Part shown: positions 31,039 through 55,825 of the stretch, one piece after another
Layout: every line of letters starts with the position of its first letter
Numbering within the stretch: position 1 is the stretch's first letter
From: Halorientalis persicus
Lineage (GTDB): Archaea > Halobacteriota > Halobacteria > Halobacteriales > Haloarculaceae
Assembly: GCF_900110215.1 (NCBI RefSeq)
Contig: NZ_FOCX01000008.1
Span: 62,001 to 126,000, forward strand
DNA: 64,000 bases
Direction: 5' to 3'
Notes under the pieces: model-generated
The model's database searches: none
What the model saw: only the letters and a program-made list of their open reading frames with translations
Told to the model about the DNA's origin: nothing
Made by a program: the position numbers and the translations under genes

Positions 31039-32337
31039 ATGGACGAGACCGACGAGACGACAGAACGAGGGGGCACAGCCAACCGGACGGACCGGGAACG
31101 AACCGAACGCGAGGCGTCACCGGCAGGCCACACGTCGCGCCGGCGCGTGATGGCGGGTTCCGGCGCGGCGCTGGCCACGGCGGCACTCGGCGGCGTTCCG
31201 ACGGCGGCCGCCCAGTCGGGCGATACCCGCCAGGTGCTCGTCGTCGGCTGTCAGGGCACGGGGACGATCACTCTGGCCGACGCCAAGACGTACGAGCACA
31301 TCGAGGACTTCGATTCCAGTCCCGGCGAGGACAGTCCACCGCTGACGGATCCGATCAAGAAAATCGCCAAGCCGATCATCGACAGCGTGGCCGGCCGGGC
31401 GAACGTCTGTGAACACGTCAACGTGAGCCCGGACGGCGAGACGCTGTACGTCTCCCGCGCGAACCTCGGCGACACTGTGGCTATCGACATGGCGACGCGC
31501 GAGATCGAGTGGCGGACGGAGATGCTGGGCTTTCGCTCCGATCACGCCAAGCTCACGCCCGACGGGGACTACCTCTACCAGGCCGACATCCTGGCCGACA
31601 AGGTCTGGCAGATCGACACGGACACGGGCGAGAAAGTCGACTGCTTCGAGGCCGAGGACTGGCCCCACGGGACCCACGTCCACGAGGATCGGATCATCAA
31701 CGGCTCGCTGGGCAGTATTCTCCTGCCCGACGAGATCGACGGCAACCACCGGCTGACCTTCGCCGACCGCGACACCCTGGAGGTGACCAAGACCATCGAG
31801 TTCGACGAGGGCGTCCGCCCGTTCGCGTTCGCCGACGACGACGAGACGGTGTACGTACAGATCTCCTACCTGCACGGCTTCCACGAGGTCGACGTATCCG
31901 CCGGCGAGATCCAGCGGACGAAGGACCTGCCGGTCAACGAGAACGTCCCCGAGTCGAAGGAGGACTACCCGCTCCAGTCGGCCCACCACGGGATCGAGGT
32001 CTCGCCCGACGAGCAGTACGTCTGTGCCGCGGGTACCACGGGCAACTACGTGGCCGTCGTCGACCGCGAGACCTTCGAGACCGTCGGCATCACCGACGTG
32101 GGGAAGTACCCCTACTGGGTCTCGAACGCGCCGGACGGGGAGCACGCCTTCGTCTCGGTCAAAAACGAGGCGAAGATCTCGGTGATCGAGTACGAGACCG
32201 CCGAGGAGGTCGCGACGATCCCGACCGGTGACTTCCCGATGGTCACACAGGTCGCCGACGTGCCCGAGGCCGCTCTCGGGACCGGCGAGGACGTCACCGA
32301 CCCGGACGACGGGCTGTTCGGTGGCCTGTTCGACTGA
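31039..32337 (+). CDS. Tat-exported YVTN-type beta-propeller protein
   Basis: The 432-residue protein has a charged N-terminus and a Tat motif SRRRVMAGSGAALAT near residues 33-47. At least five YVTN/NHL-like blades follow (VNVSPDGETLYVSRANLGD, LTPDGDYLYQADILADKV, VSPDEQYVCAAGTTGNYV, VSNAPDGEHAFVSVKNEA). It is probably secreted. Such propellers occur as binding proteins, lactonase-like enzymes or cofactor-handling proteins. No heme-binding motif is visible. Confidence 0.78.
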   Translation: MDETDETTERGGTANRTDRERTEREASPAGHTSRRRVMAGSGAALATAALGGVPTAAAQSGDTRQVLVVGCQGTGTITLADAKTYEHIEDFDSSPGEDSPPLTDPIKKIAKPIIDSVAGRANVCEHVNVSPDGETLYVSRANLGDTVAIDMATREIEWRTEMLGFRSDHAKLTPDGDYLYQADILADKVWQIDTDTGEKVDCFEAEDWPHGTHVHEDRIINGSLGSILLPDEIDGNHRLTFADRDTLEVTKTIEFDEGVRPFAFADDDETVYVQISYLHGFHEVDVSAGEIQRTKDLPVNENVPESKEDYPLQSAHHGIEVSPDEQYVCAAGTTGNYVAVVDRETFETVGITDVGKYPYWVSNAPDGEHAFVSVKNEAKISVIEYETAEEVATIPTGDFPMVTQVADVPEAALGTGEDVTDPDDGLFGGLFD

Positions 32338-34065: not shown

Positions 34066-34198
34066 CTGGGTTCGCCGGGTCCCGCGGCGGACGGATCTGC
34101 TGCCGTGACCGCCGATCGGATCAGCAACGGCTGGGCCGTCGACACCGCGCCGCCGAGTCGTAATACACACACCGGTGCAGTGTGAACCGGGAAGAGAG

Positions 34199-34516
34199 AT
34201 GGTCGGGGCTGTCGGAGAGTGGCTGACGGGAACCGAAGCTGCTGTCCTGCTCGTGATCCTCGTACTGGCGACACTGGGGACCGCGACGCTGTTTCTGATC
34301 GGCCTCGCGGGATACCGGCGGCGACGGACGCGGACGTACCTGCTGATGACCGTCGTGCTGGGCCTGCTCGTCGTCCGGTCGGTCGTCGGTATCGGGACCG
34401 TTCTCGGCGCGGTCCCGATGCCCGTGCATCACCTGATCGAACACAGTTCCGACCTGGCGGTCGCCGCGCTCGTGCTCTACGCGCTCTTGCAGTTGGGGCC
34501 GCCGTCCCTGGAGTGA
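34199..34516 (+). CDS. Small membrane protein next to a double-wHTH regulator
   Basis: The 105-residue protein has three hydrophobic segments (about 14-38, 48-70, 82-100) with basic RRRRTR between the first two. This arrangement is found in haloarchaeal small membrane proteins encoded beside ArsR-like regulators. No catalytic motif. It may be the membrane partner of the downstream regulator. Confidence 0.65.
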   Translation: MVGAVGEWLTGTEAAVLLVILVLATLGTATLFLIGLAGYRRRRTRTYLLMTVVLGLLVVRSVVGIGTVLGAVPMPVHHLIEHSSDLAVAALVLYALLQLGPPSLE

Positions 34517-34604
34517 TCGCGGTTCGGCACCTCGAATTTGCCCGTTCCCAGGAACCGAGAACGCACGTCCCGGCTTTACCCGTCAGTGCCCAACCTCGTT
34601 GCAC

Positions 34605-35117
34605 ATGACCGAGGTGCGACAGCAGGTCCTCGAACACGTCGACGCCCATCCCGGCGTCCACTACAAGGGGCTCGTCCGGGAGCTCGACATCGCGGCGGGC
34701 CAGGCGCAGTACCACCTCCGCCGACTGCTCGACGCGCGGGAACTCGACGTCGAGAAGATCCAGGGGCGGACACACTACTTCACCGACGGGTACGACGGGT
34801 GGGAGCGGCGGACGATCGCGCTCTTGCGCCGGGAGACGACCCGACACGTCATCGTGTACGCACTCGACTCGGACGGCGTGTCGGCGATGGAACTCGCGGA
34901 CGAACTCGACCTCGCGCGGAGTACCGTTTCCTTTCACGTCTCGACGCTGGTCGAGGCCGGTGTCGCGGAGAAATACTTCGACTCGAAGGGCCGGGCCCAC
35001 CTGCGCCTGACCCGGCCCGCGGAGACCAGAAGTCTCCTCGAAGCGGTCACGCCGTCGCTGTCGGATCGGCTCGTCGACCGGTTCACGCGGCTGGTCGACG
35101 CGAGTTTCCACGGCTAG
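34605..35117 (+). CDS. Regulator with two winged-helix domains
   Basis: The 170-residue protein has two wHTH units: about 1-60 (HYKGLVRELDIAAGQAQYHLRRLLDAREL) and about 75-130 (MELADELDLARSTVSFHVSTLVEAGV). It is ArsR/MarR-like with no visible ligand cysteines. Located just before the Nos maturation island, it could regulate it, though a shared operon is excluded by the reversed NosL gene between them. Confidence 0.78.
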   Translation: MTEVRQQVLEHVDAHPGVHYKGLVRELDIAAGQAQYHLRRLLDARELDVEKIQGRTHYFTDGYDGWERRTIALLRRETTRHVIVYALDSDGVSAMELADELDLARSTVSFHVSTLVEAGVAEKYFDSKGRAHLRLTRPAETRSLLEAVTPSLSDRLVDRFTRLVDASFHG

Positions 35118-35146
35118 CTCGGGGCAAAAACGCAGGTCGCGACCGC

Positions 35147-35776
35147 CTACTCCAGATGGGTGCCGCGGTACTGTTCTGCCAGGTCGCGGTCGAACGCGGA
35201 CAGGTCGACGATGTCGTCCTCGGTGAGGTACGCCACCGCGTCGACGTACGCGACCGCGTCCGCGCGGTCGGCGAACGGGGCGGGGTTCAGTCCCATCGGG
35301 TCCTCGAGTCGGTCGGAGTCGGTTTCGAGCGCGAAGAACGCCTCGGTTCCGTCGACGAACTCGTGGGTCTCGAAGTCCGTCACCCAGAGCCCGGCGACGG
35401 CCGCATCCGTCTCGGCGAACGCCTCGGGGACGGCGTAGTAGGTGGTCGCACAGCCCGAGGTGCAGAAGTACGCCCGGGTCTCGTCCTCGTGGACGGCCTG
35501 TGCGTTCCAGTCCGAGAACTTCGATTTCCCGGCTGGCATCCCACAGACCGCACACGACGCGTCCGCCGGGACGTCGACGGGCTCCAGTGACTCCCCGCTG
35601 GGCTCGGCCGTCCCGTCGTCGGTCGTCGTCCCGTCGCTGGGACTCGCCTCGGTCGGCGTGTCGTCGGTGCCGTTCCCGTCGCCGCCGCTACAGCCCGCCA
35701 GCGAGACCGTCGCGCCGGCCGCCAGCAGCGTGATCGCGGTGCGTCGATCTACCATTGGGCCCGTGTCGTTCGTCAT
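35147..35776 (-). CDS. nosL: NosL-family copper lipoprotein (copy 1)
   Basis: The 209-residue protein has a signal region and lipobox LAGC (about 27-30), an acidic Thr/Ser linker, and the NosL signature CAVCGMPAGKSKFSDW with two Cys and Met. It carries a second pair CTSGC, and DFETHEFVDGTEAFFALE. NosL binds Cu(I) outside the cell and delivers copper for NosZ-type sites. It is divergent from the SCO gene across a symmetric palindrome. ATG 35755 (MVDRR) is an alternative start. Confidence 0.85.
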   Translation of the reverse strand: MTNDTGPMVDRRTAITLLAAGATVSLAGCSGGDGNGTDDTPTEASPSDGTTTDDGTAEPSGESLEPVDVPADASCAVCGMPAGKSKFSDWNAQAVHEDETRAYFCTSGCATTYYAVPEAFAETDAAVAGLWVTDFETHEFVDGTEAFFALETDSDRLEDPMGLNPAPFADRADAVAYVDAVAYLTEDDIVDLSAFDRDLAEQYRGTHLE

Positions 35777-35811
35777 GGTCGACGGTACCGGACCGAGGAA
35801 GAAAACGCGTG

Positions 35812-35847
35812 TGGTGCGTTGCTCGAAAGGTTTCGAGGAACGCACCA
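35812..35847. promoter_or_regulatory. 36-bp near-perfect palindrome with CGAA-N4-TTCG core
   Basis: Arms TGGTGCGTT and AACGCACCA flank a core CTCGAAAGGTTTCGAG, with one mismatched pair between arms and core. CGAAAGGTTTCG (35824-35835) matches the CGAA-N4-TTCG motif I recall for NarO-regulated denitrification promoters of Haloferax. The centre is about 53 bp from both the NosL and SCO start codons. TATA-like boxes lie between it and each gene, as for an activator serving both directions. Confidence 0.65.
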
Positions 35848-35883
35848 GACGCCTTACCGTCGGGCGGTCCGGACCGGCATACG

Positions 35884-36576
35884 ATGAACAGGCGGCGTTA
35901 CCTCCAGTCGATCTGTTGCGGTGCTGGCGTGGCGACGGCCGGGTGTCTCGAGACGCTGGTGAGCGGCGACTCGGCGGCTCCGGAGCCGGTCCTCGACCCA
36001 CCGAAGGATCAGCAGTTCGACAGCGAGGACATCCCGTATCCGGCCTACGGGGAGCGACTGCCCGACTTCACGTTGCCGGACCCTCTCAGAGGGCGGACCG
36101 TCGACACGGCCGACCTCGACGAGACGCTGCTGGTGACGGGGTTCTTCGCGACGTGTCCCGCCGAGTGTATCAGCCTGATCTCCCGACTCACCAACGTCCA
36201 GGCGGGGATCGTCGAGGATGGCCTCACCGACGCCACTCGGTTCCTCGCGATCACGTTCGATCCCGAGCGCGACGACGCCGAGGCGCTCCGGGCCTACGGC
36301 GAGCGGCTGAACGTCGACTTCGAGGCGGGCAACTGGCACTTCCTGCGTCCCGAGTCGGTCGACCGCGCCGAGGCGGTCGTCGACGAGAAACTCGGGATCA
36401 CCTTCGACCGCGTCGGTGCTGGCGAGTCCAGTCGGCTGACCGAGTACGACTTCATCCACCTCTCGGTGACCTTCCTCCGGAACCCGGACGGGGTCGTCGA
36501 ACGCGCGTATCGGACGGACACTCCCGACCCCGAGCGCCTCCGCTCGGACGTGTCCGCGGTCGTCGACGCGTACTGA
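35884..36576 (+). CDS. SCO1/SenC-type copper chaperone lipoprotein
   Basis: The 230-residue protein has a signal with lipobox TAGC (about 18-21) and a thioredoxin-like fold. The SCO copper site is FFATCPAECISL (Cys-x3-Cys) plus the distal His in YDFIHLSVTFL. SCO proteins insert copper into the CuA site of cytochrome oxidase and, in denitrifiers, of N2O reductase. The stop overlaps the ATG of the next gene (TGATG), so it heads a copper-assembly operon. Confidence 0.9.
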   Translation: MNRRRYLQSICCGAGVATAGCLETLVSGDSAAPEPVLDPPKDQQFDSEDIPYPAYGERLPDFTLPDPLRGRTVDTADLDETLLVTGFFATCPAECISLISRLTNVQAGIVEDGLTDATRFLAITFDPERDDAEALRAYGERLNVDFEAGNWHFLRPESVDRAEAVVDEKLGITFDRVGAGESSRLTEYDFIHLSVTFLRNPDGVVERAYRTDTPDPERLRSDVSAVVDAY

Positions 36577-37364
36577 TGTTCACGACATGCACACCAGCGA
36601 ATCCACTGTTCGGAACGCAGACGCTCAGCCTGAGCCTGTTGGCGCTCGTCGGCCTGCTCGGTGGCGCCCACTGTATCGGGATGTGCGGCCCGCTCGTCGT
36701 CACCTACGCCGACCGGATGGACGGCGGGCGAGCGGGGACGCTCACGCTCGGCGAGGTTCGCCAGCACGCGCTGTTCAACGTCGGCCGGACGGCGAGCTAC
36801 ACGCTCCTCGGCGGGCTGTTCGGGCTCGCTGGCGAACTCCTCTTCGTCGGCCTCTGGGATCTGACGCGGCTGGCGACGGATATCCACGCCGTCTCGGGGA
36901 TCGCGGTCGGCCTCGCCGTCGGCGTCGCCGGCATCGGGTACGTGACGGGAGGAGTCGGTGGCGACGTGCGCTTACCGGGCCTGGCCCGACTCGGCGCAGC
37001 GGTCCAGTCACGCGTCCTCCCCAGAGTCGAGGATCTGGTGAACGGCCCACGGATCGTCGGCCTCGGTGCCGTCCACGGGTTGCTCCCCTGTCCACTGTTG
37101 TACCCTGCCTACCTGTACGCGTTCGCGCAGGGCTCGGCGCTGGGCGGCGCGACGGCCCTGGCCGCGCTCGGGCTCGGCACCGTCCCCGCCGTCTTCCTGA
37201 CGGGGACGGTGTTCGCCTCGCTCGACGTCGGCGGCAGCCGGGTCCTCCACCGGGGACTGGGTGTCGCCTTCCTCGCGCTGGGGTACATCCCGCTCCAGCA
37301 CGGGCTCGCGGCCCTCGGTATCGCGCTCCCGGCCGTCCCGCTGCCACACTTCCAGCCGTGGTAG
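36576..37364 (+). CDS. SafE/TauE-type membrane protein with CxxxC metal motif
   Basis: The 262-residue protein has about six transmembrane segments. The first pair carries GGAHCIGMCGPLVV, and the second half has HGLLPCPLLYPAY. The HCxGMCGP motif is typical of the subfamily (COG2836) encoded with copper-oxidase assembly genes. Sulfite export, the annotation often given, is unlikely in this context. It lies between SCO and NosD and may move copper or reductant across the membrane. Confidence 0.85.
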   Translation: MFTTCTPANPLFGTQTLSLSLLALVGLLGGAHCIGMCGPLVVTYADRMDGGRAGTLTLGEVRQHALFNVGRTASYTLLGGLFGLAGELLFVGLWDLTRLATDIHAVSGIAVGLAVGVAGIGYVTGGVGGDVRLPGLARLGAAVQSRVLPRVEDLVNGPRIVGLGAVHGLLPCPLLYPAYLYAFAQGSALGGATALAALGLGTVPAVFLTGTVFASLDVGGSRVLHRGLGVAFLALGYIPLQHGLAALGIALPAVPLPHFQPW

Positions 37365-37422
37365 GGACCAGTACGACACACGACCGGAGACGGAACACCA
37401 CCGCGACCGGACCGAGCGAGCC

Positions 37423-39327
37423 ATGAGGGGAGTCGTCGTCGCGGGCGCGGTCGTCGGACTGGCGCTGCTGGTCGCGACGACGGGGTTCGTCGCGAACCCA
37501 GCGACCGAGGCCGACCTCTCGCCGGTTCCGTTCGACCGGACGCTCCAGACGGGGCTGACTGGCGTCGACGTCCAGCAGGCCGAGGCCGACGGGCACGCGA
37601 TCCCACGCGGGCAGGTGTTCTACTCCCAGTACGAGTACGTCGTCGGCTTCCACGGGATCGACGCGCTCCTCGCGGGGACGACGGGGCGGTACACCGAACA
37701 GTTCGGCCGGCCGCTCGCGGCCCACGTCACCGACTTCGCCGGGACCGATCCGACGCTCACCACGGACGGATACCTGAACCGATCGCGGGACAGGCCGACG
37801 GGCTGGACGCGCGCCACGGACGCGTGGTACGTCGTCGGGACGGGGGCCCGGACGCCCGCCGGTCCCACGCCCGTCCCGTTCGGCGACCGCGACGCGGCGT
37901 CGGCCTTCGCGAACGAGTACGACGGCGAGGTGCTCGACTGGGAGACGCTGACCGACCGACACGGGTCGGGAGCGGCGACCGGCCCGCCCGCGCCGCCGAC
38001 GGACGAGCGACTGCGATGGGCCGACCGACAGGTCCGGAACGCAAGCGTGCTCGGCGAGCGACCGGTCTCGGTCACGGTCGGCGAGGATGCGCCGACGGTC
38101 GCGGCGGCCGTCGAGCACGCCCCACCGAACACGACAGTCCGCATTCCACCGGGGCGATACGACGTGAACCTCACCGTCGGGAAGCCGATCACGATCGACG
38201 GCGCGGGCGGGGCGACGGTCCTCGACGGCGGCGGGAACGGGACGGTGCTGACCGCCGCGAGCGCCCGCGTCGGCGTCACCGACCTCCGGGTGACCGGGGT
38301 CGGGGATCGGGAACTGGTGAGCGTCGACGAGAGCGAAGTGGCGGCCGATCCCGCCTGGGATAGCCGCATCAGGCTCGTCTACGGGCGCGGTGACGCGGGT
38401 ATCCGGCTCTCGACGGCTCCCGGCTCGCTGGTCGAGAACGTCACGATCGAGACGGACGCGAACGGCGTCGTCGCCTTCGACAGTTCGAGGGCGGTCGTTC
38501 GTCGCGTCCGGGTCGACGGGCGCGAGGACACCGACACTGGCGGGATGGGCGTACTGGCGATGTACTCCCGGATGGTGATCGAGGACACGACGGTCGACGG
38601 CGGTGCCGACGGCGTTTACACCCACTACGCCGACGGGCTGGTCGTCCGGGACTCCCGGATGAGTGGGATGCGGTTCGGGGTCCACGAGATGTACACCAGC
38701 GACACGTTGCTGGCGAACAACACGATCGTGGACACCGACATCGGGATCTACGTCATGACCCGGCCGACGGGCAACGCCATCGTCGGGAACCGGCTCCGGG
38801 ACAACGGCGTCGGCGTCGAGACCGCGGGGACGGCCTCCTACGCCGTCGACAACGTCGCGGTCGACAACGAGGTCGGGATCTCCATCGGCACGAGCCGGTC
38901 CATCGTCGCGAACAACACCGTCGCCGCGAACGGCGTCGGACTCCGGTCGACGACGCTGTTCCCGACCAACGACGTGACCGGCAACGACGTCGTCGGCAAC
39001 GACCGGCCCGTCGCGGTCGACCTCGGCCGGCTGACCGTCTGGGCCGTCGACGGCCGCGGCAACTACTGGGGGTCGATCCCGGGGACCGACCGCGACGGCG
39101 ACGGGGTCGTCGACCGCGCGTTCCGCCCGACGGACACCCTCGACGGCCGCGCACGCGAACGGCGCGGCGAGTTCGTCCTCGCCCACTCGACCGCCGTCGA
39201 CCTCCGCCGGGCGTTCCAGCAGGCCGTCCCCGGACTGCGTCCAGCGGCCGTCGTCGATCCCGCGCCACTGTCGGACCCGACCCACCCCGGCCGACTCGAC
39301 CGACTGAACGTCTCCACGGAGGAATGA
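37423..39327 (+). CDS. nosD: NosD with N-terminal Cys-less NosL-like domain (copy 1)
   Basis: The 634-residue exported protein has a hydrophobic anchor (about 4-24). An N-terminal domain (about 38-185) has HVTDFAGT, DAWYVVGTGARTPAGP and AFANEYDGEVLDWETL, like the second half of NosL but without its CxxCGM copper motif. A CASH-type right-handed beta-helix follows (about 220-570: GVYTHYADGLVVRDSRMSG, GVHEMYTSDTLLANN). NosD works with NosF and NosY to mature the CuZ site of N2O reductase. Its stop overlaps the NosF start. Confidence 0.9.
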   Translation: MRGVVVAGAVVGLALLVATTGFVANPATEADLSPVPFDRTLQTGLTGVDVQQAEADGHAIPRGQVFYSQYEYVVGFHGIDALLAGTTGRYTEQFGRPLAAHVTDFAGTDPTLTTDGYLNRSRDRPTGWTRATDAWYVVGTGARTPAGPTPVPFGDRDAASAFANEYDGEVLDWETLTDRHGSGAATGPPAPPTDERLRWADRQVRNASVLGERPVSVTVGEDAPTVAAAVEHAPPNTTVRIPPGRYDVNLTVGKPITIDGAGGATVLDGGGNGTVLTAASARVGVTDLRVTGVGDRELVSVDESEVAADPAWDSRIRLVYGRGDAGIRLSTAPGSLVENVTIETDANGVVAFDSSRAVVRRVRVDGREDTDTGGMGVLAMYSRMVIEDTTVDGGADGVYTHYADGLVVRDSRMSGMRFGVHEMYTSDTLLANNTIVDTDIGIYVMTRPTGNAIVGNRLRDNGVGVETAGTASYAVDNVAVDNEVGISIGTSRSIVANNTVAANGVGLRSTTLFPTNDVTGNDVVGNDRPVAVDLGRLTVWAVDGRGNYWGSIPGTDRDGDGVVDRAFRPTDTLDGRARERRGEFVLAHSTAVDLRRAFQQAVPGLRPAAVVDPAPLSDPTHPGRLDRLNVSTEE

Positions 39328-40121
39328 TGTCCGAACGATCCACCACCGACCCAACCGACGCATCGACCGAGCAACCGGCGCGATCCACAGCCGTCACCGT
39401 CGAGGGGCTCGACTACGCCCACGGCGACGTGTCCGTGTTCGCCGACCTCTCCGTCGGCGTCGACGCTGGCTCCGTCACCTGCGTCGTCGGCCCGAACGGC
39501 TCGGGGAAGAGTACCCTGCTGGCGCTCGTCGCGAACGTCCTCGAACCCGACGCGGGGACGGTTACGGTCGCCGGGGCCGGCGACCGTACGGTCGGCTATC
39601 TCGCCCAGCGCCCCGAGTTTCGCCCCCAGTTCACCGTCCGTCGAACCGTCGCGTTCTACTGCTCGCTGGTCGCGGGGAGTCACGACGTGGACGCGGTCCT
39701 CGACCGGGTGGGCCTGACCCCGGTCGCGGACCGGCGGGTCGGCGCGCTGTCGGGCGGGATGGTGCGACTGCTGGGCATCGCGCAGGCAGTCGTCGGCGAT
39801 CCGCCGGTGCTGGTACTCGACGAGCCATCCAGCGGGCTGGACCCGGAGATGACGCGCCACGTCGCCGCCGTCGTCACCGACCTCGCCGCGTCGGGGCAGA
39901 CGATCCTGGTGTCGACTCACGACCTGCACCTCGTCGATCGGTTCGCCGACCGGGTGCTCGTCCTCGACCGTGGGGAACTCCGCGCGACCGGATCGCCGGC
40001 CGACCTGCGCGCCACGGCCGGTGCCGACACGCTGGACGGTGCGATCGCCGCCCTGACGCGTGACGGGAACAGTGACGGCGTCGCGGTCTCCGCCGGCCTC
40101 GACGGAGGTGTCTCCCGGTGA
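39324..40121 (+). CDS. nosF: NosF ABC ATPase (copy 1)
   Basis: The 265-residue protein has Walker A GPNGSGKST, Q-loop YLAQRPEFRPQ, signature LSGGMVRL (the GGM form of NosF), Walker B VLVLDEPSSGLDP and H-loop VSTHD. It provides energy for NosDFY. A start at ATG 39324 overlaps the NosD stop; ATG 39327 is equally possible. GTGA overlap with NosY at the end. Confidence 0.9.
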   Translation: MMSERSTTDPTDASTEQPARSTAVTVEGLDYAHGDVSVFADLSVGVDAGSVTCVVGPNGSGKSTLLALVANVLEPDAGTVTVAGAGDRTVGYLAQRPEFRPQFTVRRTVAFYCSLVAGSHDVDAVLDRVGLTPVADRRVGALSGGMVRLLGIAQAVVGDPPVLVLDEPSSGLDPEMTRHVAAVVTDLAASGQTILVSTHDLHLVDRFADRVLVLDRGELRATGSPADLRATAGADTLDGAIAALTRDGNSDGVAVSAGLDGGVSR

Positions 40122-40921
40122 TCCGCGAGCACGTGCTGGCGATCGCCCAGCGGGAGTTCGAGACCGTCTTCCGGACCCGCCTCCTGGTCCTGTTGAGCGT
40201 GGGCTTCGTCGGGCTGGTCGCGGGCGTCGCCTGGCTCGACCCGCCCCCGGCGTATCTGGCCCTCTCGTTCGATCTCCTGACGCCCCTCGAAACGCTGGTG
40301 CCCGTCCTGGCCTTCGCCTTCGGCTACCGGTCGTTGCTGGGCGATCGGGAGCGGGGTGAACTGGCGCGTCTGCGGACGTATCCGGTCGATTACCGGCTGT
40401 ACGTCCTCGGGGTCTACGTGGGCCGCGCGGTCGCGCTCCTCGGCGTCGTTCTGGTCGGCCTGGCGGTGGCGGCGCTGGTCGTCCCGCTCACCGGGACGGA
40501 GTCCCTGACGGCCGTGGCGACCTTCGGGACCGCCGATTCGCCGACGCTTTTCCTCCGGTTCGTCGTCCTGACGGCCGCCTTCGCGCTGGTGGCGCTGGCG
40601 CTGGCCCTGTTGGTCTCGGCCGCGGTCCGCTCGACGTGGAACGGGCTCGCGCTCGCCACCGGCGCGGTGCTGGCCCTGGTCGTCGGCATCGACGGGGCGC
40701 TCGTCGGCGCGATCACTGCGACCCTTCCCGCACCCGACCTGACCGCCTCGCTCCTCGCGTTCAGTCCCACCAGCGCCTACAGGGGGCTGGCGTTCGCGTT
40801 CGTCTTCGCCCCCGGTGGCGTGACCGTCCCCGGCGGCCCGCCAACGGTGATCAGTTCACTCGCGCTCTGTGGCTGGTTTCTGGGCGCACTCGTCCTCGCC
40901 GGGGCACTCGTCCGACGGTAG
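40118..40921 (+). CDS. nosY: NosY membrane permease (copy 1)
   Basis: The 267-residue protein starts with GTG overlapping the NosF stop. It has six hydrophobic segments, the N-terminal REFETVFRTRLL coupling helix, and FAFGYRSLLGDRERGELARLRTYPV, a hallmark of NosY/ABC-2 permeases. It also has SPTSAYRGLAF late in the protein. It forms the membrane part of NosDFY. It ends the plus-strand maturation operon, and no nosZ follows. Confidence 0.9.
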   Translation: MIREHVLAIAQREFETVFRTRLLVLLSVGFVGLVAGVAWLDPPPAYLALSFDLLTPLETLVPVLAFAFGYRSLLGDRERGELARLRTYPVDYRLYVLGVYVGRAVALLGVVLVGLAVAALVVPLTGTESLTAVATFGTADSPTLFLRFVVLTAAFALVALALALLVSAAVRSTWNGLALATGAVLALVVGIDGALVGAITATLPAPDLTASLLAFSPTSAYRGLAFAFVFAPGGVTVPGGPPTVISSLALCGWFLGALVLAGALVRR

Positions 40922-41051
40922 TCCGGTTCGGGCGATCGCGTAAACGGCCGGAAACTGGACGGCAACGAGGGTTTCACCCGCGAGCCAGGAGCCACCACTG
41001 CCGGCGAGGGGGCCGACGGCGGTCGGAATGGCACGGGGACCGACCCCCGCC

Positions 41052-42035
41052 CTATTCCTCGGTCTCGGCGGTGTCACCGGGTCGTTCGATCTCGATGCTG
41101 GTCGCGTCGCCGGGTTCCTCGCCGCGGACGACCCGGCGGACGAACTGGTCGGCGTGTTCGACGTGGGGCTGTACGTCGGACTCGCCGAACACGAGCAGTC
41201 GGGCATTCGCACGCTTCGCGAGTGCCTCGCCGTCGTCGAGCGGTGAGACGGTGGCCTGCCGGCCCCATACCAGCGTCACGGGCACGTCGCGGTCCGCCAG
41301 CACCTCCCCGAGGTCGGCGTCGAGGTCGAGGAAGCCGCCGAAGAAGGAGGCGGGGGCGAAGCGCGCGCCTGGCTGGTGGGCCGTCGCCCACTGGTAGTCG
41401 ACCAGGTCGTCCGTGACGTTTGCCTCGTCGTAGTAGCCGTGATCCGTGTTGAAATAGCGGATCGCGGGCTTGCACGTCGCGAGGTTGTAGAGGGCAGTCC
41501 CCAGCAGTGGCGTGCGGACGAGCGACCGGACCAGCGGCCGCTGCCCCTCGAAGGTGGTCGCGTCCGGACAGACCAGGATCAGTTCCTCGACGTCCGTGTC
41601 TGCGGCCGCGACGGCGGTGTAGGCCCCGGCCAGCGAGGTGGCGATCACGGTCGCGTCCTCGGTCATGTCGTCGAGGAAGTCCCCGACGAACGTGGTGTAC
41701 AGCGACCCGGAGTACAGCAGTGGCGGCCGGTCCGAGCGCCCGAAGCCGGGCAGGTCGGGCGCGATCACGTGGTAGTCCTCGGCGAGGGCGTCGAAGATGC
41801 CGCGGAACTCGTGGCTGGAACCGGAGGCGTTGATCCCGTGGAACAGGCACAGATCGGGAGCGTCCGGGTCGCCGGCCTCGACGTAGGCCACGTCGAACCC
41901 GCGCCAGCGGTACGTCCCGGTTTCGCCGTCGAGCGGCGAGTCGAGGCCGTCCGCGCGTCGGCCCAGCAGTCGGTTGGCCGCGCCGATCACTCCGGCGGTA
42001 CCCAGCGCCCCCAGTGCGACGTTGCGGAGCTTCAT
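41052..42035 (-). CDS. Alpha/beta hydrolase between the two Nos operons
   Basis: The 327-residue protein has a short N-terminal hydrophobic stretch, [16 protein letters not shown] (oxyanion region), [11 protein letters not shown], the nucleophile elbow [10 protein letters not shown] (Ser), and a late His near [11 protein letters not shown]. The substrate is unknown. It reads on the same strand as the second Nos operon and lies downstream of it, with a gap of about 60 bp to NosY copy 2. Confidence 0.82.
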
Positions 42036-42095
42036 GCGAGAATCAAGGGGCGTCAGGCGTTTATACGTGATGGGGCAGGCGGCGACCGCCGCGAG

Positions 42096-42905
42096 TTACC
42101 CGCGCCAGACGCGGGCGACGGCCACGCCCAGCGCGCCGACGAACCAGAGGGTCAATCCGGCCACGCCCGCGACCAGCGAGGGCGTCGGGGCGCTCCGGGT
42201 GTACACGTCGCCGACCGCGAGGGTGTAGACGAGCCCGCGGTAGGCGCTGTTCGGGCTGAGCGCCGTCAGCGTCCCGAGCGCGTCGGGGCCGATCAGCCCG
42301 CCCGACAGCGCCGCGACGATGGTGGCGTCGAAGCCGAGCACGAGCGCGATCACGAGGACGACAGCGATGGCCAGCGCTTCGCGGGCCGACCGGGCCGCTG
42401 CCGAGACGGCCACTGCCACGGCCAGTGCGACCGCCGTGAACAGAACGGTGAGCGCCACGAACCGCAGGAAGAGGACGGGCGCGTCGACCGTGCCGTGCCT
42501 GACGACGACCGAGACGGCGTCACCGGGCGCGAACACGACCGCGGCGGCCGATAGCCCCAGCGAGACCAGCACGACGGGTAACAGCCCGGCCAGCCGGCCG
42601 AGGAAGACACCGCCGACGAACGAGAGACGGCTCACCGGATAGGTCTGGATCGTCTCCAGTTCGCCCCGATCGGCGTCCGACTGGATCGCCCGATAGCCGA
42701 AGGCGAAGGCGAGCAGTGGCACCAGGATCTCCATCGGCGCGACGAGATCGAGGATCAACGGGAGGTAGCCACCGGTCCCCGCGGCGACGACGAACCCGGC
42801 GACGACGACCACGAACCCCAGCGCGAGGACGAGGATCGTCGGCGTCCGGAGCAACGTGGTGAACTCCCGCTGGGCGACGATCAGCGCGGTCCGTGCACGG
42901 CTCAT
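42096..42905 (-). CDS. nosY: NosY membrane permease (copy 2)
   Basis: The 269-residue protein has six hydrophobic segments, QREFTTLLRTPTILVLALG, FAFGYRAIQSDADRGELETIQTYPVSR and SPNSAYRGLVYTLAV. All three correspond to copy 1. ATGA overlap with the NosF gene upstream. Last gene of the inverted NosL-NosD-NosF-NosY operon. Confidence 0.9.
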   Translation of the reverse strand: MSRARTALIVAQREFTTLLRTPTILVLALGFVVVVAGFVVAAGTGGYLPLILDLVAPMEILVPLLAFAFGYRAIQSDADRGELETIQTYPVSRLSFVGGVFLGRLAGLLPVVLVSLGLSAAAVVFAPGDAVSVVVRHGTVDAPVLFLRFVALTVLFTAVALAVAVAVSAAARSAREALAIAVVLVIALVLGFDATIVAALSGGLIGPDALGTLTALSPNSAYRGLVYTLAVGDVYTRSAPTPSLVAGVAGLTLWFVGALGVAVARVWRG

Positions 42906-43738
42906 TCGTCCACCTCCCCGCCGCGGGTGGCGACCTGTCCGGACTCGCTCGCGACGAGTTCGCTCATCGCCGACTCCAGATCGTCGGTGTCGGTCGACGC
43001 CATCAGCGCTGCCGGGCTGTCGGCCGCGACGATTCGCCCTCGATCCAGCACGAGGACCTGGTCCGCGATCCGCTGGACGGCGGTTAGGTCGTGACTCGTC
43101 ACCAGCACCGCCGCGTCCGCGGCGAGGTCGGTGATCACGTCCGACACGTGACGCGTCATCATCGGGTCGAGCCCGCTCGAGGGTTCGTCGAGCAGGACCA
43201 GTGGCGGGTCCCCGACCGTCGCCTGTGCGATGCCCAGCAGTCGCGTCATCCCGCCCGACAGCGCGTGGGCTCGGCGGTCCGGGACGCCACCTAGCCCAAC
43301 CCGTTCGACGGTCGCGTCCACGTCGACATCCTCGCCGGTCAGGTCGGCGTAGAACTGCAGTGTCTCGGCGACCGTGAACTGCGGTCGGAACGCCGGTGCC
43401 TGCGGGAGGTAGCCGACGGGACGGGTGGCGCTCTCGGGACGCTCGACGCTGCCGTGGTCGGCCCCGACGAGGTCAGCGATGGCGCGGATCAGCGTGGTCT
43501 TGCCGCTCCCGTTCGGGCCGACGAGGCAGGTCACGGTTCCCGGCTCGACGGCGAAGGACACCTCGTCGACCGCGACCAGATCACCGAACGCGACCGTCAG
43601 GTCCTCGACGACGAGCGCCGGATCGGCGGCCCCTGTCCCGCCCGTCGCCGGCTCGTCGGCTGTCTCGGTCGTTTCGGCATCGGCTGTCCCCGTCTCGGCT
43701 GTACCGTCGGTCGTGGTGTCGGCTGATTCGTCGGTCAT
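42902..43738 (-). CDS. nosF: NosF ABC ATPase (copy 2)
   Basis: The 278-residue protein has a Thr/Asp-rich N-terminal tail of about 40 residues, then Walker A GPNGSGKTT, YLPQAPAFRPQFT, LSGGMTRL, LVLLDEPSSGLDP and VTSHD. Closely related to copy 1 (39324). Overlaps NosD and NosY by four bases on each side. Confidence 0.9.
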   Translation of the reverse strand: MTDESADTTTDGTAETGTADAETTETADEPATGGTGAADPALVVEDLTVAFGDLVAVDEVSFAVEPGTVTCLVGPNGSGKTTLIRAIADLVGADHGSVERPESATRPVGYLPQAPAFRPQFTVAETLQFYADLTGEDVDVDATVERVGLGGVPDRRAHALSGGMTRLLGIAQATVGDPPLVLLDEPSSGLDPMMTRHVSDVITDLAADAAVLVTSHDLTAVQRIADQVLVLDRGRIVAADSPAALMASTDTDDLESAMSELVASESGQVATRGGEVDE

Positions 43739-45630
43739 GGTCGACTTCCGTTCACTCGCGCGAGCACGTCCGGTCGCGTCGGTTCGGTCAGCGGTGCGGT
43801 GTCGACGACGCCACTGGACCGGAGACCCGGCAGGCGGTCCCGGACGGACCGCAGCAGCGTCACCGCGGGCGACTCCCGGAGTGTGAGGCTCCCCTCGGAC
43901 GTGAGGAGCGCGGCGTCGACGGCACCAGTGGGCCGGTAGGAGTCGTCGATGCTTCCGTCACCGTCCGCATCGACGCCCGGGAGCCGCCCCCAGTAGTTCC
44001 CGCGACCGTCGGCCGTCCAGATGCGGACCGGGCCCATCTCGGCCTCGGCCTGCTCGTCGTTGGCCACGATGTCGTTTTCGGTGACCGTCAGCGAGGGCAG
44101 GAGGAGGTCCGCCCTGATCCCGATCCCGTTGTCGACGACGACGTTGTGGGCAACGTAGGACCGCGCGGCCGCCATGCCGAGCCCGACCTCGTTGTCCGCG
44201 ACGACGTTCTCGGCGACGAAGGAGGCGCTCCCGGCGACGATCAGCCCCGCCTCACTGTCGCGCACGTCGTTGCCTCGGAGGACGTTCCCCCGGGGTCGGG
44301 TCATCACGATCACGCCCGTCGAAGCTCGGCGGACCGTGTTGTTCCGGATCAGCGCCCCCGAAGTGTACATCTCGTGGACCCCGAACCGGAGGCCGGACAT
44401 CCGGGAGTCACGGACGACGATCCCGTTGGCCCGGTGGGTGTACACGCCGTCGCGGCCCCCCTCGAACGTGACGTTCTGGACGACGACGGGATCGAACATC
44501 GCCAGCACGCCCATGAAGCCGTCTTGCCACTCGGGCGGCCCCTCGATCCGGGAGTCCCGGACGACCAGTCCCCGTCCGCCGCGCACGAGGACGCCGTTGG
44601 CCCGGGTATCGATGTCGACGCCCGCCACGAGCGACCCGGTGCCGTTGATGAAGCGGATGGCGGAGTCGCCGCGGCCGTACGCGAGGCGGACGAACTGGTC
44701 CCAGTCGCCGCCCTCGGCGTCGCTGAACGACCGCGCGCCGGTCGACCCGACGCCGCTGATCCGCAGGTCGGTGACGGCCACTCGCTCGGCCGTGACCGAG
44801 ATCACGGTCCCCTCGCGGTCACCCCGGACGTGCGTGTCCGCTCCCCCACCGGACAGCGTCAGTGGCTTGTCGACCGTGACGTTGCCCTCGTAGCTACCCG
44901 TCGGGAGTCGGACCGTGGTGTTGGCCGGCGCGCGCTCGATGGCTGCGGCCAGCGTCGGCGCGTCCTCGCCCACGACGACCGACACGGGCCGGTCCCGGAG
45001 CCGGGATGTCGTGTCGACCTGTCGGTCGGCCCACTCGCTCCGGTTCGCCGTGATCCGGGTCACCTGGGTCTCGGGCGGGGTCCGCTCGGCGGACCGTGAC
45101 TGGACCGTCGCCCAGTCGACGACCCGTCCGCCGTACCTGTCCGCGAACGACTGTGCGGCCGTTCGCTCGCCGAACGGGACGATCGCGGGTCCGCCCGGCG
45201 TCCGGGCGCGGCTGTCGACGACGAAGGCCGCGTTTCGCGCCGACACCCACCCGCCGCCGAGGGTGTTGCGTTCGATCAGAAAGCCGTTCTCGTTCAGCGC
45301 CGGGTCGGTCCCGGCGTAGTCGGTGACGAGGACGCCGACGGGTTCGCCGAACTGTTCGGTCGTGCGCGGTCCACGGAGGTGGGTCGCGACGGCCTCGATC
45401 CCGTAGTAGCCGACGACGTACTCGTACTGGGAGAAAAACACTTCGGCCTTCGGGATCGAGAGATTGCGCTCCTCGGCTTCCTCGACGTCGACGCCGGTCA
45501 TCCCCATAGTGAGCGTGGAGTCGAACGACACGGACTCCACGTCGCGCTCCCCGTGGGGATCGACGGTGAACCCCGTCGCCGTCAGGAGGACGACGAACAC
45601 GAGACCGGCGAGGACGTACTTGACGTCCAT
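43735..45630 (-). CDS. nosD: NosD with N-terminal Cys-less NosL-like domain (copy 2)
   Basis: The 631-residue protein has the same layout as copy 1: anchor (about 5-22), a NosL-like domain with FFSQYEYVVGYYGIEAV, LVTDYAGTDPALNENGF and FADRYGGRVVDWATV but no CxxCGM, then the beta-helix (GVYTHRANGIVVRDSRMSG; GVHEMYTSGALIRNN). The two NosD proteins are clearly paralogues. It overlaps NosL by one base and NosF by four. Confidence 0.9.
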   Translation of the reverse strand: MDVKYVLAGLVFVVLLTATGFTVDPHGERDVESVSFDSTLTMGMTGVDVEEAEERNLSIPKAEVFFSQYEYVVGYYGIEAVATHLRGPRTTEQFGEPVGVLVTDYAGTDPALNENGFLIERNTLGGGWVSARNAAFVVDSRARTPGGPAIVPFGERTAAQSFADRYGGRVVDWATVQSRSAERTPPETQVTRITANRSEWADRQVDTTSRLRDRPVSVVVGEDAPTLAAAIERAPANTTVRLPTGSYEGNVTVDKPLTLSGGGADTHVRGDREGTVISVTAERVAVTDLRISGVGSTGARSFSDAEGGDWDQFVRLAYGRGDSAIRFINGTGSLVAGVDIDTRANGVLVRGGRGLVVRDSRIEGPPEWQDGFMGVLAMFDPVVVQNVTFEGGRDGVYTHRANGIVVRDSRMSGLRFGVHEMYTSGALIRNNTVRRASTGVIVMTRPRGNVLRGNDVRDSEAGLIVAGSASFVAENVVADNEVGLGMAAARSYVAHNVVVDNGIGIRADLLLPSLTVTENDIVANDEQAEAEMGPVRIWTADGRGNYWGRLPGVDADGDGSIDDSYRPTGAVDAALLTSEGSLTLRESPAVTLLRSVRDRLPGLRSSGVVDTAPLTEPTRPDVLARVNGSRP

Positions 45631-46253
45631 TATCGGCCGAGCTGGGAGATGAGCTGTGGCGTCACCTCGTCGACCGTGACGAGCTCGCCCCCGTACTCGT
45701 CCCGGAACGACGAGGCATCGCCCTCGTCACCGAACCCGATCAGGTCCCTGCCCATCGCACCGACGACCTCGGAGTTGGCGACGAAGGTCACGTCGCTGGC
45801 CGGCGCGAACGCCGACGCCTCGGGGTGTGTCGAGATGCCCGTGGTGTCTCTGAACTCGAACAGTTCGTACTCCACCGCCGAGTAGTCGGTGACGTACATC
45901 ACCGACCGCTCCCAGCCGCGCTCATCCCGCTCGAAATCGTACTGGAACGCCTCCCAGGTACTGTCGAACCGCGCCGGGTTCTCGTGGCCCGACGGCTGGT
46001 GGCCTGGGTAGAAGATCTCCGTGGAGGGTCCCGGATGGTTCACGATGTTCATTCCACACACCTCGCAGGTGTCACCCTCGGTCAGCGTTATCGCAGCGGG
46101 CACGTCACCCGTCCCGTCGGTACCGGTGCCCCCGTTCTGCGAACAGCCCGCGAGCGCCGCCACACCGACCGCACCCAGTCCGCCGAGGACCGTCCGTCGG
46201 CGGTAGCGATTCTGCCGGTTCGATCGCCTGGAGTGTGCGTGATTGTCACACAT
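45630..46253 (-). CDS. nosL: NosL copper lipoprotein (copy 2)
   Basis: The 207-residue protein has a twin-arginine stretch (RYRRRTVLGG) and lipobox LAGC. The canonical NosL motif is GDTCEVCGMNIVNHPGPSTEI, followed by MYVTDYSAVEYE, FVANSEVVGAMGRDLIGF and FRDEYGGELVTVDEV. It is closer to bacterial NosL than copy 1. It delivers copper to the NosDFY clients. It heads the minus-strand operon; no nosZ lies upstream of it. Confidence 0.9.
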   Translation of the reverse strand: MCDNHAHSRRSNRQNRYRRRTVLGGLGAVGVAALAGCSQNGGTGTDGTGDVPAAITLTEGDTCEVCGMNIVNHPGPSTEIFYPGHQPSGHENPARFDSTWEAFQYDFERDERGWERSVMYVTDYSAVEYELFEFRDTTGISTHPEASAFAPASDVTFVANSEVVGAMGRDLIGFGDEGDASSFRDEYGGELVTVDEVTPQLISQLGR

Positions 46254-47435: not shown

Positions 47436-47851
47436 CGTCGCTCGGGCGCGTTCTCGCGGACGAAATCGACGATCTCGTCCATCGAGGCCCCGGGACCGAA
47501 GATGTGCGCGACGCCGAGATCGAGCAGTTCGTCCCGGTCTTCCTCTGGGATGATCCCGCCGACGAGGATCAGCGTGTCCTCTTTCGCGCCGTACTCTTCG
47601 AGGCCGTCCATGATCTTCGGGACGAGCGTGCTGTGTGCGCCCGAGAGGATGGAGATGCCCAGCACGTCCACGTCCTCCTGAACCGTCGCCTGAACGATCT
47701 CGTCGGGGGCCTTGTGCAGTCCCGAGTAGATGACCTCGAAGCCGGCGTCGCGGAACGCCCGCGCGATGACGTGTGCGCCGCGGTCGTGACCGTCCAGCCC
47801 GACCTTTCCGACCAGACACCGGATCGTCCGCTGTTCCTGCGCTTCGCTCAT
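47432..47851 (-). CDS. Methylmalonyl-CoA mutase B12-binding (small) subunit
   Basis: The 139-residue stand-alone cobalamin-binding domain has the DxHxxG motif in KVGLDGHDRGAHVIA, SILSGAHSTLVPKI and GGIIPEEDRDELLDLGVAHIFGPG. It is the C-terminal half of the mutase as a separate subunit, the archaeal arrangement. The catalytic large subunit is not in the window. The ATG at 47851 is chosen over 47881 as the normal family start. Confidence 0.92.
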   Translation of the reverse strand: MSEAQEQRTIRCLVGKVGLDGHDRGAHVIARAFRDAGFEVIYSGLHKAPDEIVQATVQEDVDVLGISILSGAHSTLVPKIMDGLEEYGAKEDTLILVGGIIPEEDRDELLDLGVAHIFGPGASMDEIVDFVRENAPERR

Positions 47852-47984
47852 GCCATCTCGTAACACGTTGGTGACTTTCACTCTTGCCGTTGGAGACGGC
47901 CCCGACCGCCGGTCCGGCCACCGTGACCGCCACTGCTCGCCCGGATGCGACGGACTGATGCCCGAGGCGACCTCACGACCGCCT

Positions 47985-48623
47985 ATGGCAGTCGCCGACG
48001 ACCAAAGCTGGCCGAAGGCTCACCCCCGCGCCGTCACGACCGTCCTCTCGATCATCGGGTACGCCCTCGTGATCGGTGCGTTCGGCGGGTTCCTCCCGCT
48101 GCCCGACCTCAGCCGTGAGACGGTCATCTTCCTGGGTGACGCCATCGCCGTCGTCAACACGCTCGCGCTCACCGCCATCGTCGCCGGCGTCTACTTCATC
48201 CGGAACGGCCAGATCCGCAAACACCGCGCGGCCATGCTAACTGCCTTCACCCTCATCATGGTCTTTCTCGTCCTCTATCTCCTGAAAGTCGGTGGCGGGT
48301 TCGAGAAGGCCATCCTGGCCGAGGGTGCGGTCCGGGTTGCCTACCTCATCATGCTCGCGATCCACATCCTGCTGTCGGCGCTGGCGGTGCCGGTCGTCCT
48401 CCACGCCGTCGTCCTCGGACTGACCCACTCGCCCGAGGAACTGCGGGACACCATTCACGCCAGGGTCGGGCGGGTCGCGGTCGCCGCGTGGGGGCTCTCG
48501 CTCGCGCTCGGGATCGTGACCTACGTCCTCCTGAATCACGTCTACGGCTGGACACCGCGCGGGCACAGCGCCGGGTTGCTCCTGTTACTGCTCTCGACGC
48601 GGCCGCCGTTCGACAGTGACTGA
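47985..48623 (+). CDS. DUF420 membrane protein (cytochrome oxidase assembly-like)
   Basis: The 212-residue protein has five to six hydrophobic helices, with VYFIRNGQIRKHRAAMLTAF and HILLSALAVPVVLHAVVLGL carrying the His residues conserved in DUF420. Members (CtaM in Bacillus and Staphylococcus) are needed to assemble heme-copper oxidases. The start at 47985 (MAVADDQSW) fits relatives; ATG 47958 is possible. Other oxidase assembly genes lie 4-6 kb away. Confidence 0.82.
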   Translation: MAVADDQSWPKAHPRAVTTVLSIIGYALVIGAFGGFLPLPDLSRETVIFLGDAIAVVNTLALTAIVAGVYFIRNGQIRKHRAAMLTAFTLIMVFLVLYLLKVGGGFEKAILAEGAVRVAYLIMLAIHILLSALAVPVVLHAVVLGLTHSPEELRDTIHARVGRVAVAAWGLSLALGIVTYVLLNHVYGWTPRGHSAGLLLLLLSTRPPFDSD

Positions 48624-52566: not shown

Positions 52567-53253
52567 TCACCGCCCGAACGGTCGCCAGTACAGCAGGCCG
52601 ATAGTCACGACGAACACGACCGTCGAGAGGCCGTACGATTGGCTGTACACCGCACCGGCGATCGCGCTCCCGCTCCCCAGAATCCCCGTCGCCAGCGAGG
52701 CCAGCACGGGCCAGGTACAGCTGACACAGGAGAGCAGGCCGAGCAGGCCCGTCACCGCCGAGCCCGCGGCGTCGAGTACCGTCGCGTAGACCAGGTACGC
52801 CAGCGCGGCGTAGCCCACCAGCTTGAACGGGAACAGCGACATCGCGAGATAGGTCCCGTTGTACAGGACCGTCGGAGCCCAGCCCGGCGGCAGTCCCAGC
52901 ACCGTGAGGCTGAGGTTTCGCTCGGCCATGCCGATCGCGGGGCCGACGAGACCACCGACGTACGCCAGTACCAGGAAGTAGCCGACCGCGATACTCCCGG
53001 CGACCCAGCGGTCCCGACTGGGGGCCGGCGCTGGCGTCGTCTTGAAGATGGCCAACAGCCCGACGTTGATCCAGACGAACGGGTAGAGCCAGTACCGGAT
53101 CGAGAGCAGGCCGGTCAGCTCGCTCGAACTGACGAGCCAGTAGACGCCCAGCAGGAGCAACTCTGAATTGACGATCAACAGCCCGATCAGTAGCGTCTCC
53201 CTGTCCGGGACGAACTCCCCGAATCGGTCGGTGATCGTCGCGTCCGTCGTCAT
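52567..53253 (-). CDS. Membrane protein with SCVSC motif beside heme synthase
   Basis: The 228-residue protein has six to seven hydrophobic segments. The last third carries LLGLLSCVSCTWPVLASLATG, a close Cys pair followed by Pro inside a helix, reminiscent of thiol or copper relay membrane proteins. It resembles haloarchaeal DUF7546-type proteins. ATGA overlap with the CtaB fusion gene suggests a role in oxidase assembly, which is inference. Confidence 0.7.
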   Translation of the reverse strand: MTTDATITDRFGEFVPDRETLLIGLLIVNSELLLLGVYWLVSSSELTGLLSIRYWLYPFVWINVGLLAIFKTTPAPAPSRDRWVAGSIAVGYFLVLAYVGGLVGPAIGMAERNLSLTVLGLPPGWAPTVLYNGTYLAMSLFPFKLVGYAALAYLVYATVLDAAGSAVTGLLGLLSCVSCTWPVLASLATGILGSGSAIAGAVYSQSYGLSTVVFVVTIGLLYWRPFGR

Positions 53254-54668: not shown

Positions 54669-54794
54669 GGCTGTACCTCTCACTATCTGGTCCTTGGTGT
54701 GGCCGTACTTATGACCCGCGCTTTCGGTCAGTCGCTCCATCCCGAGGCCGCGGGAAACCGTCGCAGGGGGGCCGCACTCGCCGGAAGACAGCAG

Positions 54795-54826: not shown

Positions 54827-55825
54827 ATGATGAACCGCAAGCGCGTCGGGGCATTGGCGCTTTTCGGTGCTGCGTTGCTGCTGATGGCGGTCGAACCCGC
54901 GGCCGCCCAGTCAGGGTACGCGTCGACCACCGAAGGAGCGATCTGGGGACTGAACAGTAACCTGATCTACGTGGCGGTCCCGATCACGATCCTCGTCGAA
55001 GGGATCCTGATCTACACCGTCTGGAAGTACCAGAAGACCGACGAGGCCAAGCCGACCCAGGAGAACCGCCGGCTGGAGATCACCTGGACCGTCGCGACGG
55101 CCGTCATCCTCCTTTTCGTCGGCGTCGCCTCCTATCAGGTACTCGGGAACCCCTACGTCGCCGCGTCGTCGGAGAACACGCTCCAGGGCGATCCCGCCGA
55201 CGAGATCGAAGTGTACGGACAGAAGTACAACTGGAACTTCGTCTACCGGAACGTCAGCGTCGACGACGCCAGCGCCACCGGCGTATCGATGACGAACGTC
55301 TCGATCGAGGGGACGACAGTCGAGAACGTCACCGACGAGGGAGTCGTGATATCGGGCGGATCCGTCTCCAGCGCCGATGACGGCGCGCTCGAGAGCGCCG
55401 CCCTCGTCAACGGAACGGTGACCGCCGGTGCCGGCAACGCCTCCCAGTACGAGACCGGCGAGCAGGTCTCCGTCGACGACGTGAGTCTCAGTGGGGCGGC
55501 CGTCGAAGGCGCGAGCATCTCGGGTGCCACCGTCGAGAGTACGAACACGATGGTCATGCCAGTGGATCGGAACATTCGGCTGAACATCACCGCAAACGAC
55601 TGGCTGCACGCGTTCCACGTCCCCGCGCTGGGGCTGAAGCAGGACGCGCTGCCGGGACAGTCCAACTACATCGTCACCAAGGCCACCCAGACTGGTGAGT
55701 ACCAGCTCTACTGCGCCGAGTACTGCGGCGTCGGTCACTCGGGTATGCTCGGGAGCGTCGACGTCCAGTCACAGTCGGACTACGACTCCTGGCTGGCCCA
55801 GTCCTGGTTCAGCGCCCAGGGATAG
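54827..55825 (+). CDS. coxB: Cytochrome c oxidase subunit II with large insertion
   Basis: The 332-residue protein has a signal or first helix (about 7-27), two transmembrane helices (about 45-67 and 85-105) and a CuA domain. The CuA ligands are His261 (DWLHAFHVP), Cys296, Glu298, Cys300, His304 and Met307 (CAEYCGVGHSGM). Between GQKYNWNFVY and the second CuA half lies an insertion of about 100 residues (141-240), rich in N-x-S/T sequons with a repetitive hydrophobic pattern. Subunit I is not in the window. Confidence 0.9.
   Translation: MMNRKRVGALALFGAALLLMAVEPAAAQSGYASTTEGAIWGLNSNLIYVAVPITILVEGILIYTVWKYQKTDEAKPTQENRRLEITWTVATAVILLFVGVASYQVLGNPYVAASSENTLQGDPADEIEVYGQKYNWNFVYRNVSVDDASATGVSMTNVSIEGTTVENVTDEGVVISGGSVSSADDGALESAALVNGTVTAGAGNASQYETGEQVSVDDVSLSGAAVEGASISGATVESTNTMVMPVDRNIRLNITANDWLHAFHVPALGLKQDALPGQSNYIVTKATQTGEYQLYCAEYCGVGHSGMLGSVDVQSQSDYDSWLAQSWFSAQG

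Follow-up and report, generated by a model that had tools for sequence, protein, structure and literature searches.

The 64,000-nucleotide window of Halorientalis persicus contig NZ_FOCX01000008.1, to which all feature coordinates below refer unless another contig is named, contains two facing sets of genes for the copper machinery NosDFY-NosL, here called A and B. Both sets belong to a haloarchaeal NosDFY-NosL subfamily that is independent of nosZ, the gene for nitrous oxide (N2O) reductase, and separate from nosZ-linked NosD. With moderate confidence, we propose that both most likely deliver copper to the CuA site of terminal oxidases, in the CbaB subunit of the ba3 type and the CoxB subunit (gene cox2) of the aa3 type.

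Set A, on the plus strand, runs from DUF7471 and a helix-turn-helix (HTH) regulator, past the divergent NosL1, to SCO, SafE, NosD-A, NosF-A and NosY-A. Set B, on the minus strand, comprises NosL2, NosD-B, NosF-B, NosY-B and a hydrolase. The genes, with the evidence for each, are:
34175..34516, plus strand: DUF7471 small membrane protein, first in set A (PF24283, 99.8 bits)
34599..35117, plus strand: two-domain winged HTH regulator of the HVO_0163 type, set A (PF24266, 108 bits)
35147..35776, minus strand: NosL1, predicted lipoprotein with a CxxCGM motif, set A, divergent from SCO (PF05573, 46 bits)
35884..36576, plus strand: SCO1/SenC copper/thiol chaperone with a CPAEC motif, set A (PF02630, 45 bits)
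36576..37364, plus strand: SafE, DsbD_2-type membrane protein, set A (PF13386, 147 bits)
37423..39327, plus strand: NosD-A (PF05573, 55 bits at 58-178; PF05048, 85 bits at 382-551)
39324..40121, plus strand: NosF-A, ABC ATPase (PF00005; NosF tree)
40118..40921, plus strand: NosY-A, ABC-2 permease (PF12679)
41052..42035, minus strand: alpha/beta hydrolase, final gene of the set B operon (PF12697)
42096..42905, minus strand: NosY-B, ABC-2 permease (PF12679)
42902..43738, minus strand: NosF-B, ABC ATPase (PF00005)
43735..45630, minus strand: NosD-B, NosL-like N-terminal domain and NosD beta-helix (Pfam, NosD tree, AlphaFold/Foldseek)
45630..46253, minus strand: NosL2, predicted lipoprotein with a CxxCGM...HPGP motif, set B (PF05573, 130 bits)

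This gene content and order, including the divergence of NosL1 from SCO, agree with the first-pass annotation, apart from corrected gene starts. The two sets do face each other as it described, but the hydrolase on which they converge belongs to one of them: it ends the minus-strand operon, and it follows NosY likewise in two Salinibaculum genomes. Both sets encode a NosD beta-helix protein together with NosF and NosY within one operon, and so fall into the NosD family in its wide sense (PF05048). The CxxCGM motifs of NosL1 and NosL2 stand behind a lipobox-like signal, which marks both proteins as putative NosL chaperones.

The absence of nosZ, first noticed for the 64 kb, extends to the whole 4.87-Mb, 100%-complete assembly, where searches with three hidden Markov models (HMMs), for clades I, II and III, turned up no nosZ. 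The best scores were 52 bits for TIGR04246 (clade II), 30 for TIGR04244 (clade I) and 33 for NF052460 (clade III), and these low scores come from a fragment of a propeller and from oxidase subunits, matched in their CuA parts. As a positive control, full-length NosZ was found in 75 of 242 genomes of the class, scoring 501-546 bits under TIGR04246. A nosZ hidden elsewhere in the genome, or one of clade III, was considered and rejected, no match coming near the cut-off. The genome thus lacks the nosZ expected with dedicated N2O-reductase machinery, and for this assembly the early suggestion of two NosZ forms as clients can be discarded.

Long NosD proteins, defined by a best match below 1e-75, were found in 158 of the 242 genomes, and 99 of these 158 lack nosZ; conversely, 16 of the 75 nosZ genomes have no long NosD, and 59 genomes contain both kinds of NosD. 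An unrooted tree of 71 orphan and 20 nosZ-linked NosD proteins separates the two groups by one branch (SH-aLRT 100), and the NosF tree gives the same split (SH-aLRT 99). Both H. persicus NosDs lie on the orphan side, neither grouping with nosZ-linked NosD, and the idea that only one of the two sets serves a different client is therefore unsupported.

The nosZ-linked NosDs of the 20 loci are 457-514 amino acids long and align with the window NosD only from about residue 213 onwards, at 28-30% identity; an N-terminal domain of about 200 residues is therefore missing in all 20. In NosD-A and NosD-B this domain is NosL-like, matching PF05573 with 51-55 bits (cut-off 24) and also solved NosL structures (E 1.2e-7). 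No cysteine is present in residues 1-210 of 61 of the 71 orphan NosDs, which leaves the fused domain without the CxM copper motif and thus without the signature of a NosL copper chaperone; the free NosLs retain the motif in 41 of 53 cases. Residues D394, R415, H419, M421 and M443 are common to orphan and nosZ-linked NosD, while H399, R407, T444, P446, G602 and R604 are specific to orphan NosD. Under TIGR04247, the NosD copper family, the two window proteins score 212 and 207 bits and do not reach the curated cut-off of 300, whereas a haloarchaeal nosZ-linked NosD scores 374 bits. In structure the likeness to NosD is evident: the AlphaFold model of NosD-B (pLDDT 87) has the NosD of NosDFYL (7osf_A) as its best Foldseek match, with the NosD of NosDFY also among the best, and the A1 profile matches 7o0y_A (E 2.6e-39).

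The sets might also be relicts of a lost nos operon, having formerly served a nosZ and outlasted it, as the naming of NosDFY and NosL for nosZ, and the loss or gain of nosZ in many haloarchaea, would allow. We regard this as highly improbable: the nosZ-linked NosD and NosF proteins form a separate clade lacking the NosL-like domain, the two kinds of NosD coexist in the 59 genomes mentioned, and set B encodes intact proteins and keeps its synteny throughout the genus.

Over the 242 genomes, long NosD was compared with four markers, ba3 subunit I, nosZ, NirK and aa3-type cox2, using presence lists transcribed by hand from the search outputs. Long NosD and ba3 subunit I occur together in 144 genomes, ba3 alone in 29, NosD alone in 14 and neither in 55 (odds ratio (OR) 19.5, p 3e-20). 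The association persists in genus strata (Mantel-Haenszel OR 10, p 0.001), which are a partial control for descent and involve no phylogenetic model, with one genome per genus (median p 2.5e-7), and separately in three taxon blocks, families f1, f3 and the rest. No such association was seen between NosD and nosZ in these genomes (genus-stratified OR 1.3, p 0.75), and that with NirK is weak (OR 3.4 overall; genus-stratified 2.5, p 0.12). On large contigs, the distance from long NosD to cbaA is 30 kb or less in 4 of 19 genera, where chance would give 0.61 (p 0.002); positions for this test were transcribed by hand and some contig sizes were set at 0.85 of the assembly. Some matched oxidase stretches (e.g., cbaA in G031 and G128) and several nirK stretches of f1/g3 show a single in-frame TGA or other stop, which may come from the search reading through the gene end or be real.

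The neighbours of NosD were surveyed at 76 named orphan loci, which fall into 32 groups at genus level, and at 20 nosZ loci, in stretches of about 22 and 20 kb respectively, lengths that are not exactly matched. SCO, SafE and the HTH regulator each adjoin orphan NosD in 12 of the 32 groups and DUF7471 in 10; at the 20 nosZ loci only SafE was found, once. Salinibaculum has a cluster of the set A type with the order DUF7471-HTH-NosL1-SCO-SafE-TlpA-CcdA-Trx-NosL2-NosDFY-hydrolase, and that of Haloarchaeobius is similar, the later thioredoxin, NosL2 and the hydrolase not being detected there. Oxidase genes lie in or beside the orphan clusters of G033/G141, G161, Natronoglomus, Haloarcula salina, Haloferax mucosum and a Halobaculum marinum plasmid. 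The order in G033/G141 is cox2-NosDFY, then NosL-CopA-SafE, then cbaDBA; the Haloferax mucosum match to the CbaA marker is a COX1 of another type (PF00115). One contig binned as Nitriliruptoraceae (Actinomycetota; L246) encodes haloarchaeal-type NosDFY, probably through a binning error.

Of the alternatives first suggested, co-occurrence and neighbourhood best support another copper enzyme, for instance an oxidase, as client. The CuA site needs copper and two reduced cysteines, and SCO and TlpA act on bacterial CuA subunits, TlpA reducing ScoI and CoxB in Bradyrhizobium (PMC6696091). NosL and NosDFY pass copper to an enzyme with CuA and CuZ sites (PMC6530538). The simplest reading is therefore that the haloarchaeal sets bring copper to oxidase CuA. 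From the computed gene content, subfamily split, fusion of a NosL-like domain that has lost its copper motif, ba3 co-occurrence and neighbourhood, we infer a pathway whose biochemical steps, direction of copper flow and client would be as follows. A CopA-type P-ATPase would bring copper to the outer face, where the lipoprotein NosL would bind Cu(I) through its CxM motif and dock on NosD, the fused NosL-like domain without the copper cysteine perhaps serving for docking or structure. A conformational change driven by the NosFY ATPase would then pass the copper on, and SCO, with TlpA and CcdA where present, would hold the CuA dithiol reduced.

Several observations weigh against an oxidase client. 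Among the NosD-bearing genomes, 14 of 158 have no ba3, and 29 of the 173 with ba3 have no long NosD. The aa3-type cox2 is present in 238 of the 242 genomes and, being nearly universal, cannot discriminate, so its association with NosD is uninformative. The linkage test is sensitive to distance, with p 0.058 at 20 kb and p 0.01 at 75 kb. In genome G129, NosDFY-NosL occurs with a plastocyanin-type (halocyanin-like) copper protein adjoining NosD, and CbaA, a match to the cox2 query, nosZ and NirK were all absent above threshold. Shared adaptation to little oxygen or limited copper, and not service to a client, may also account for the co-occurrence.

The main rival is a general extracytoplasmic copper supply to halocyanins, NirK, multicopper oxidases and oxidases, with no dedicated client. 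The G129 module, the NosD-bearing genomes without ba3 and the weak NirK association fit it, but ba3 shows a far stronger association than NirK does, and the neighbouring oxidase, SCO, TlpA and CcdA genes point to CuA; we hold it to be possible, yet clearly the less likely of the two. Maturation of this genome's copper nitrite reductase by one or both sets, also raised in the first-pass annotation, has in its favour that nirK is indeed present (C42:74675-75619) and that the nosZ-less NosDFY-NosL locus of Parageobacillus has been proposed to serve this enzyme (PMC13068155). The within-genus association is weak, and 59 of the 158 NosD-bearing genomes have no NirK above the cut-off, which makes it an improbable client.

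The CuA client that we favour has two candidates in this genome, a cox2 gene about 9 kb from set B and a ba3 cluster on contig C52 (L133 8732-14773). The latter encodes subunit I, the CuA subunit and a small subunit, with a divergent SafE gene and one for a copper P-type ATPase. The window features around the first are:
47850..48623, plus strand: DUF420 (CtaM family) membrane protein (PF04238, 109 bits)
53250..54740, minus strand: CtaA/CtaB-type heme synthase adjoining cox2 (PF01040 and PF02628)
54833..55825, plus strand: cytochrome oxidase subunit II (cox2) with a complete CuA motif, candidate client (PF00116, PF02790)

In B. subtilis, CtaM is required for the Qox and Cta oxidases to be active (PMC13344008). 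The cox2 product contains a repeat-like insert of about 80 residues inside its CuA domain (residues ~150-230); in alignments with homologues from other genera the match covers both flanks of this insert and not the insert itself.

The two sets may also have diverged in client, B serving the adjacent aa3-type oxidase and A the ba3 oxidase on the other contig. Synteny links set B to cox2 in the genus, set A contains SCO and a SafE that is 50% identical (pairwise) to that of the ba3 cluster, and NosD-A and NosD-B are only 49% identical. Ba3-bearing sister species, however, hold set B alone, so that either B suffices there or ba3 needs neither; such a division is conceivable, though we think it rather unlikely.

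The two sets are clear paralogues, as first proposed, and not near-copies, with identities of 46-55% (NosD 49%, NosF 55%, NosY 46%). The same facing sets occur in Halorientalis pallida F13-25 at about 90% identity, and the arrangement is therefore no assembly artefact. NosD-B and its flanks (ACAT-OBf ... MeaB-McmB-DUF420) are syntenic in five sister genomes (G168, G086, G058, G110 and G230), and in some sisters synteny continues from set B to cox2 within the stretches fetched. Set B is thus the resident module, the genus orthologue. Set A, from the same subfamily and presumably of similar function, is an additional, inserted module whose arrival truncated a resident membrane-protein gene, as two features indicate:
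34088..40933, no strand assigned: segment missing at the same site in the five sister genomes, set A as an inserted block (blastn)
40907..41119, minus strand: remnant of the resident membrane-protein gene, overlapping the hydrolase 3' end (tblastn)

In H. regularis a 157-codon membrane-protein gene fills the gap, of which about 81 codons still align here beside the end of set A. In the NosD tree NosD-A groups with G199, of another genus (support 96), and by identity, H. pallida aside, its nearest relatives are in Salinibaculum and Haloarchaeobius. Our reading is that set A was inserted either before the window strain and H. pallida separated or in only one of the two, from which it then passed to the other. 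Related modules are found on haloarchaeal megaplasmids, which would make transfer easier. Trees and sister genomes rule out a recent tandem duplication, and neither a linked nosZ nor a very recent origin of the pair was found, A and B being old separate lineages.

Set A of H. pallida contains an extra CxxCGM NosL between SafE and NosD-A (L176 18199-18888, minus strand). This gene is missing from H. persicus, where SafE and NosD-A are separated by a gap of 58 bp, so set A may depend on NosL1 or borrow the NosL2 of set B.

One further candidate client lies near set A:
31039..32337, plus strand: seven-bladed propeller protein with a TAT signal (profile/homologue comparison)

It has a weak likeness to lactonase-type (clade III) NosZ (59 bits, cut-off 700) and to the YVTN, hydrazine synthase beta and NirF propellers, and contains no CuA domain. 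Seven histidines (H169, H210, H237, H279, H282, H316 and H317) are identical in 5/5 close homologues. Set B, set A or both could conceivably mature a CuZ-like site in this exported, CuA-less protein unrelated to NosZ, but its orthologues in G183 and G157 occur without long NosD, and we consider such a role very doubtful.

The Halorientalis sets share components, fold and a CxxCGM NosL lipoprotein with Pseudomonas stutzeri NosDFY-NosL (PDB 7o0y, 7osf), from which they differ in the absence of NosZ and in the added N-terminal NosL-like domain of NosD. NosDFY genes without nosZ have been described in Haloferax volcanii (Zumft and Kroneck 2006, as cited in PMC9240420), Bacillus azotoformans (PMC3475470) and Parageobacillus thermoglucosidasius (PMC13068155). 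Like the sets here, these loci encode NosDFY, some of them also NosL, without a nosZ linked to them; the reports, that on H. volcanii as cited there, describe neither a haloarchaeal subfamily nor a survey. The domain fusion has left traces in annotation: a Natrinema plasmid protein is named 'nitrous oxide reductase accessory protein NosL/NosD', and Haloferax mediterranei NosD is listed under both the NosL and NosD families (PMC9240420). Bacterial CuA assembly employs SCO, TlpA and CcdA, of which set A has SCO, while the orthologous clusters of Salinibaculum and Haloarchaeobius also encode TlpA and CcdA; as reviewed, that pathway has no NosDFY, whereas the haloarchaeal loci do. In the open-access literature (most subscription journals lay outside the search) we found no account of a nosZ-independent haloarchaeal subfamily, its motif-less NosL-like domain or its tie to ba3.

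It is common practice to annotate NosDFY and NosL as maturation factors of N2O reductase and to take them as markers of N2O reduction. With 99 of the 158 genomes that have this NosD subfamily lacking nosZ, such annotation misleads in haloarchaea. If terminal oxidases are indeed the clients, an ABC-type machine would join the known CuA assembly factors, and how copper is inserted in archaeal respiration could be tested directly along this route.

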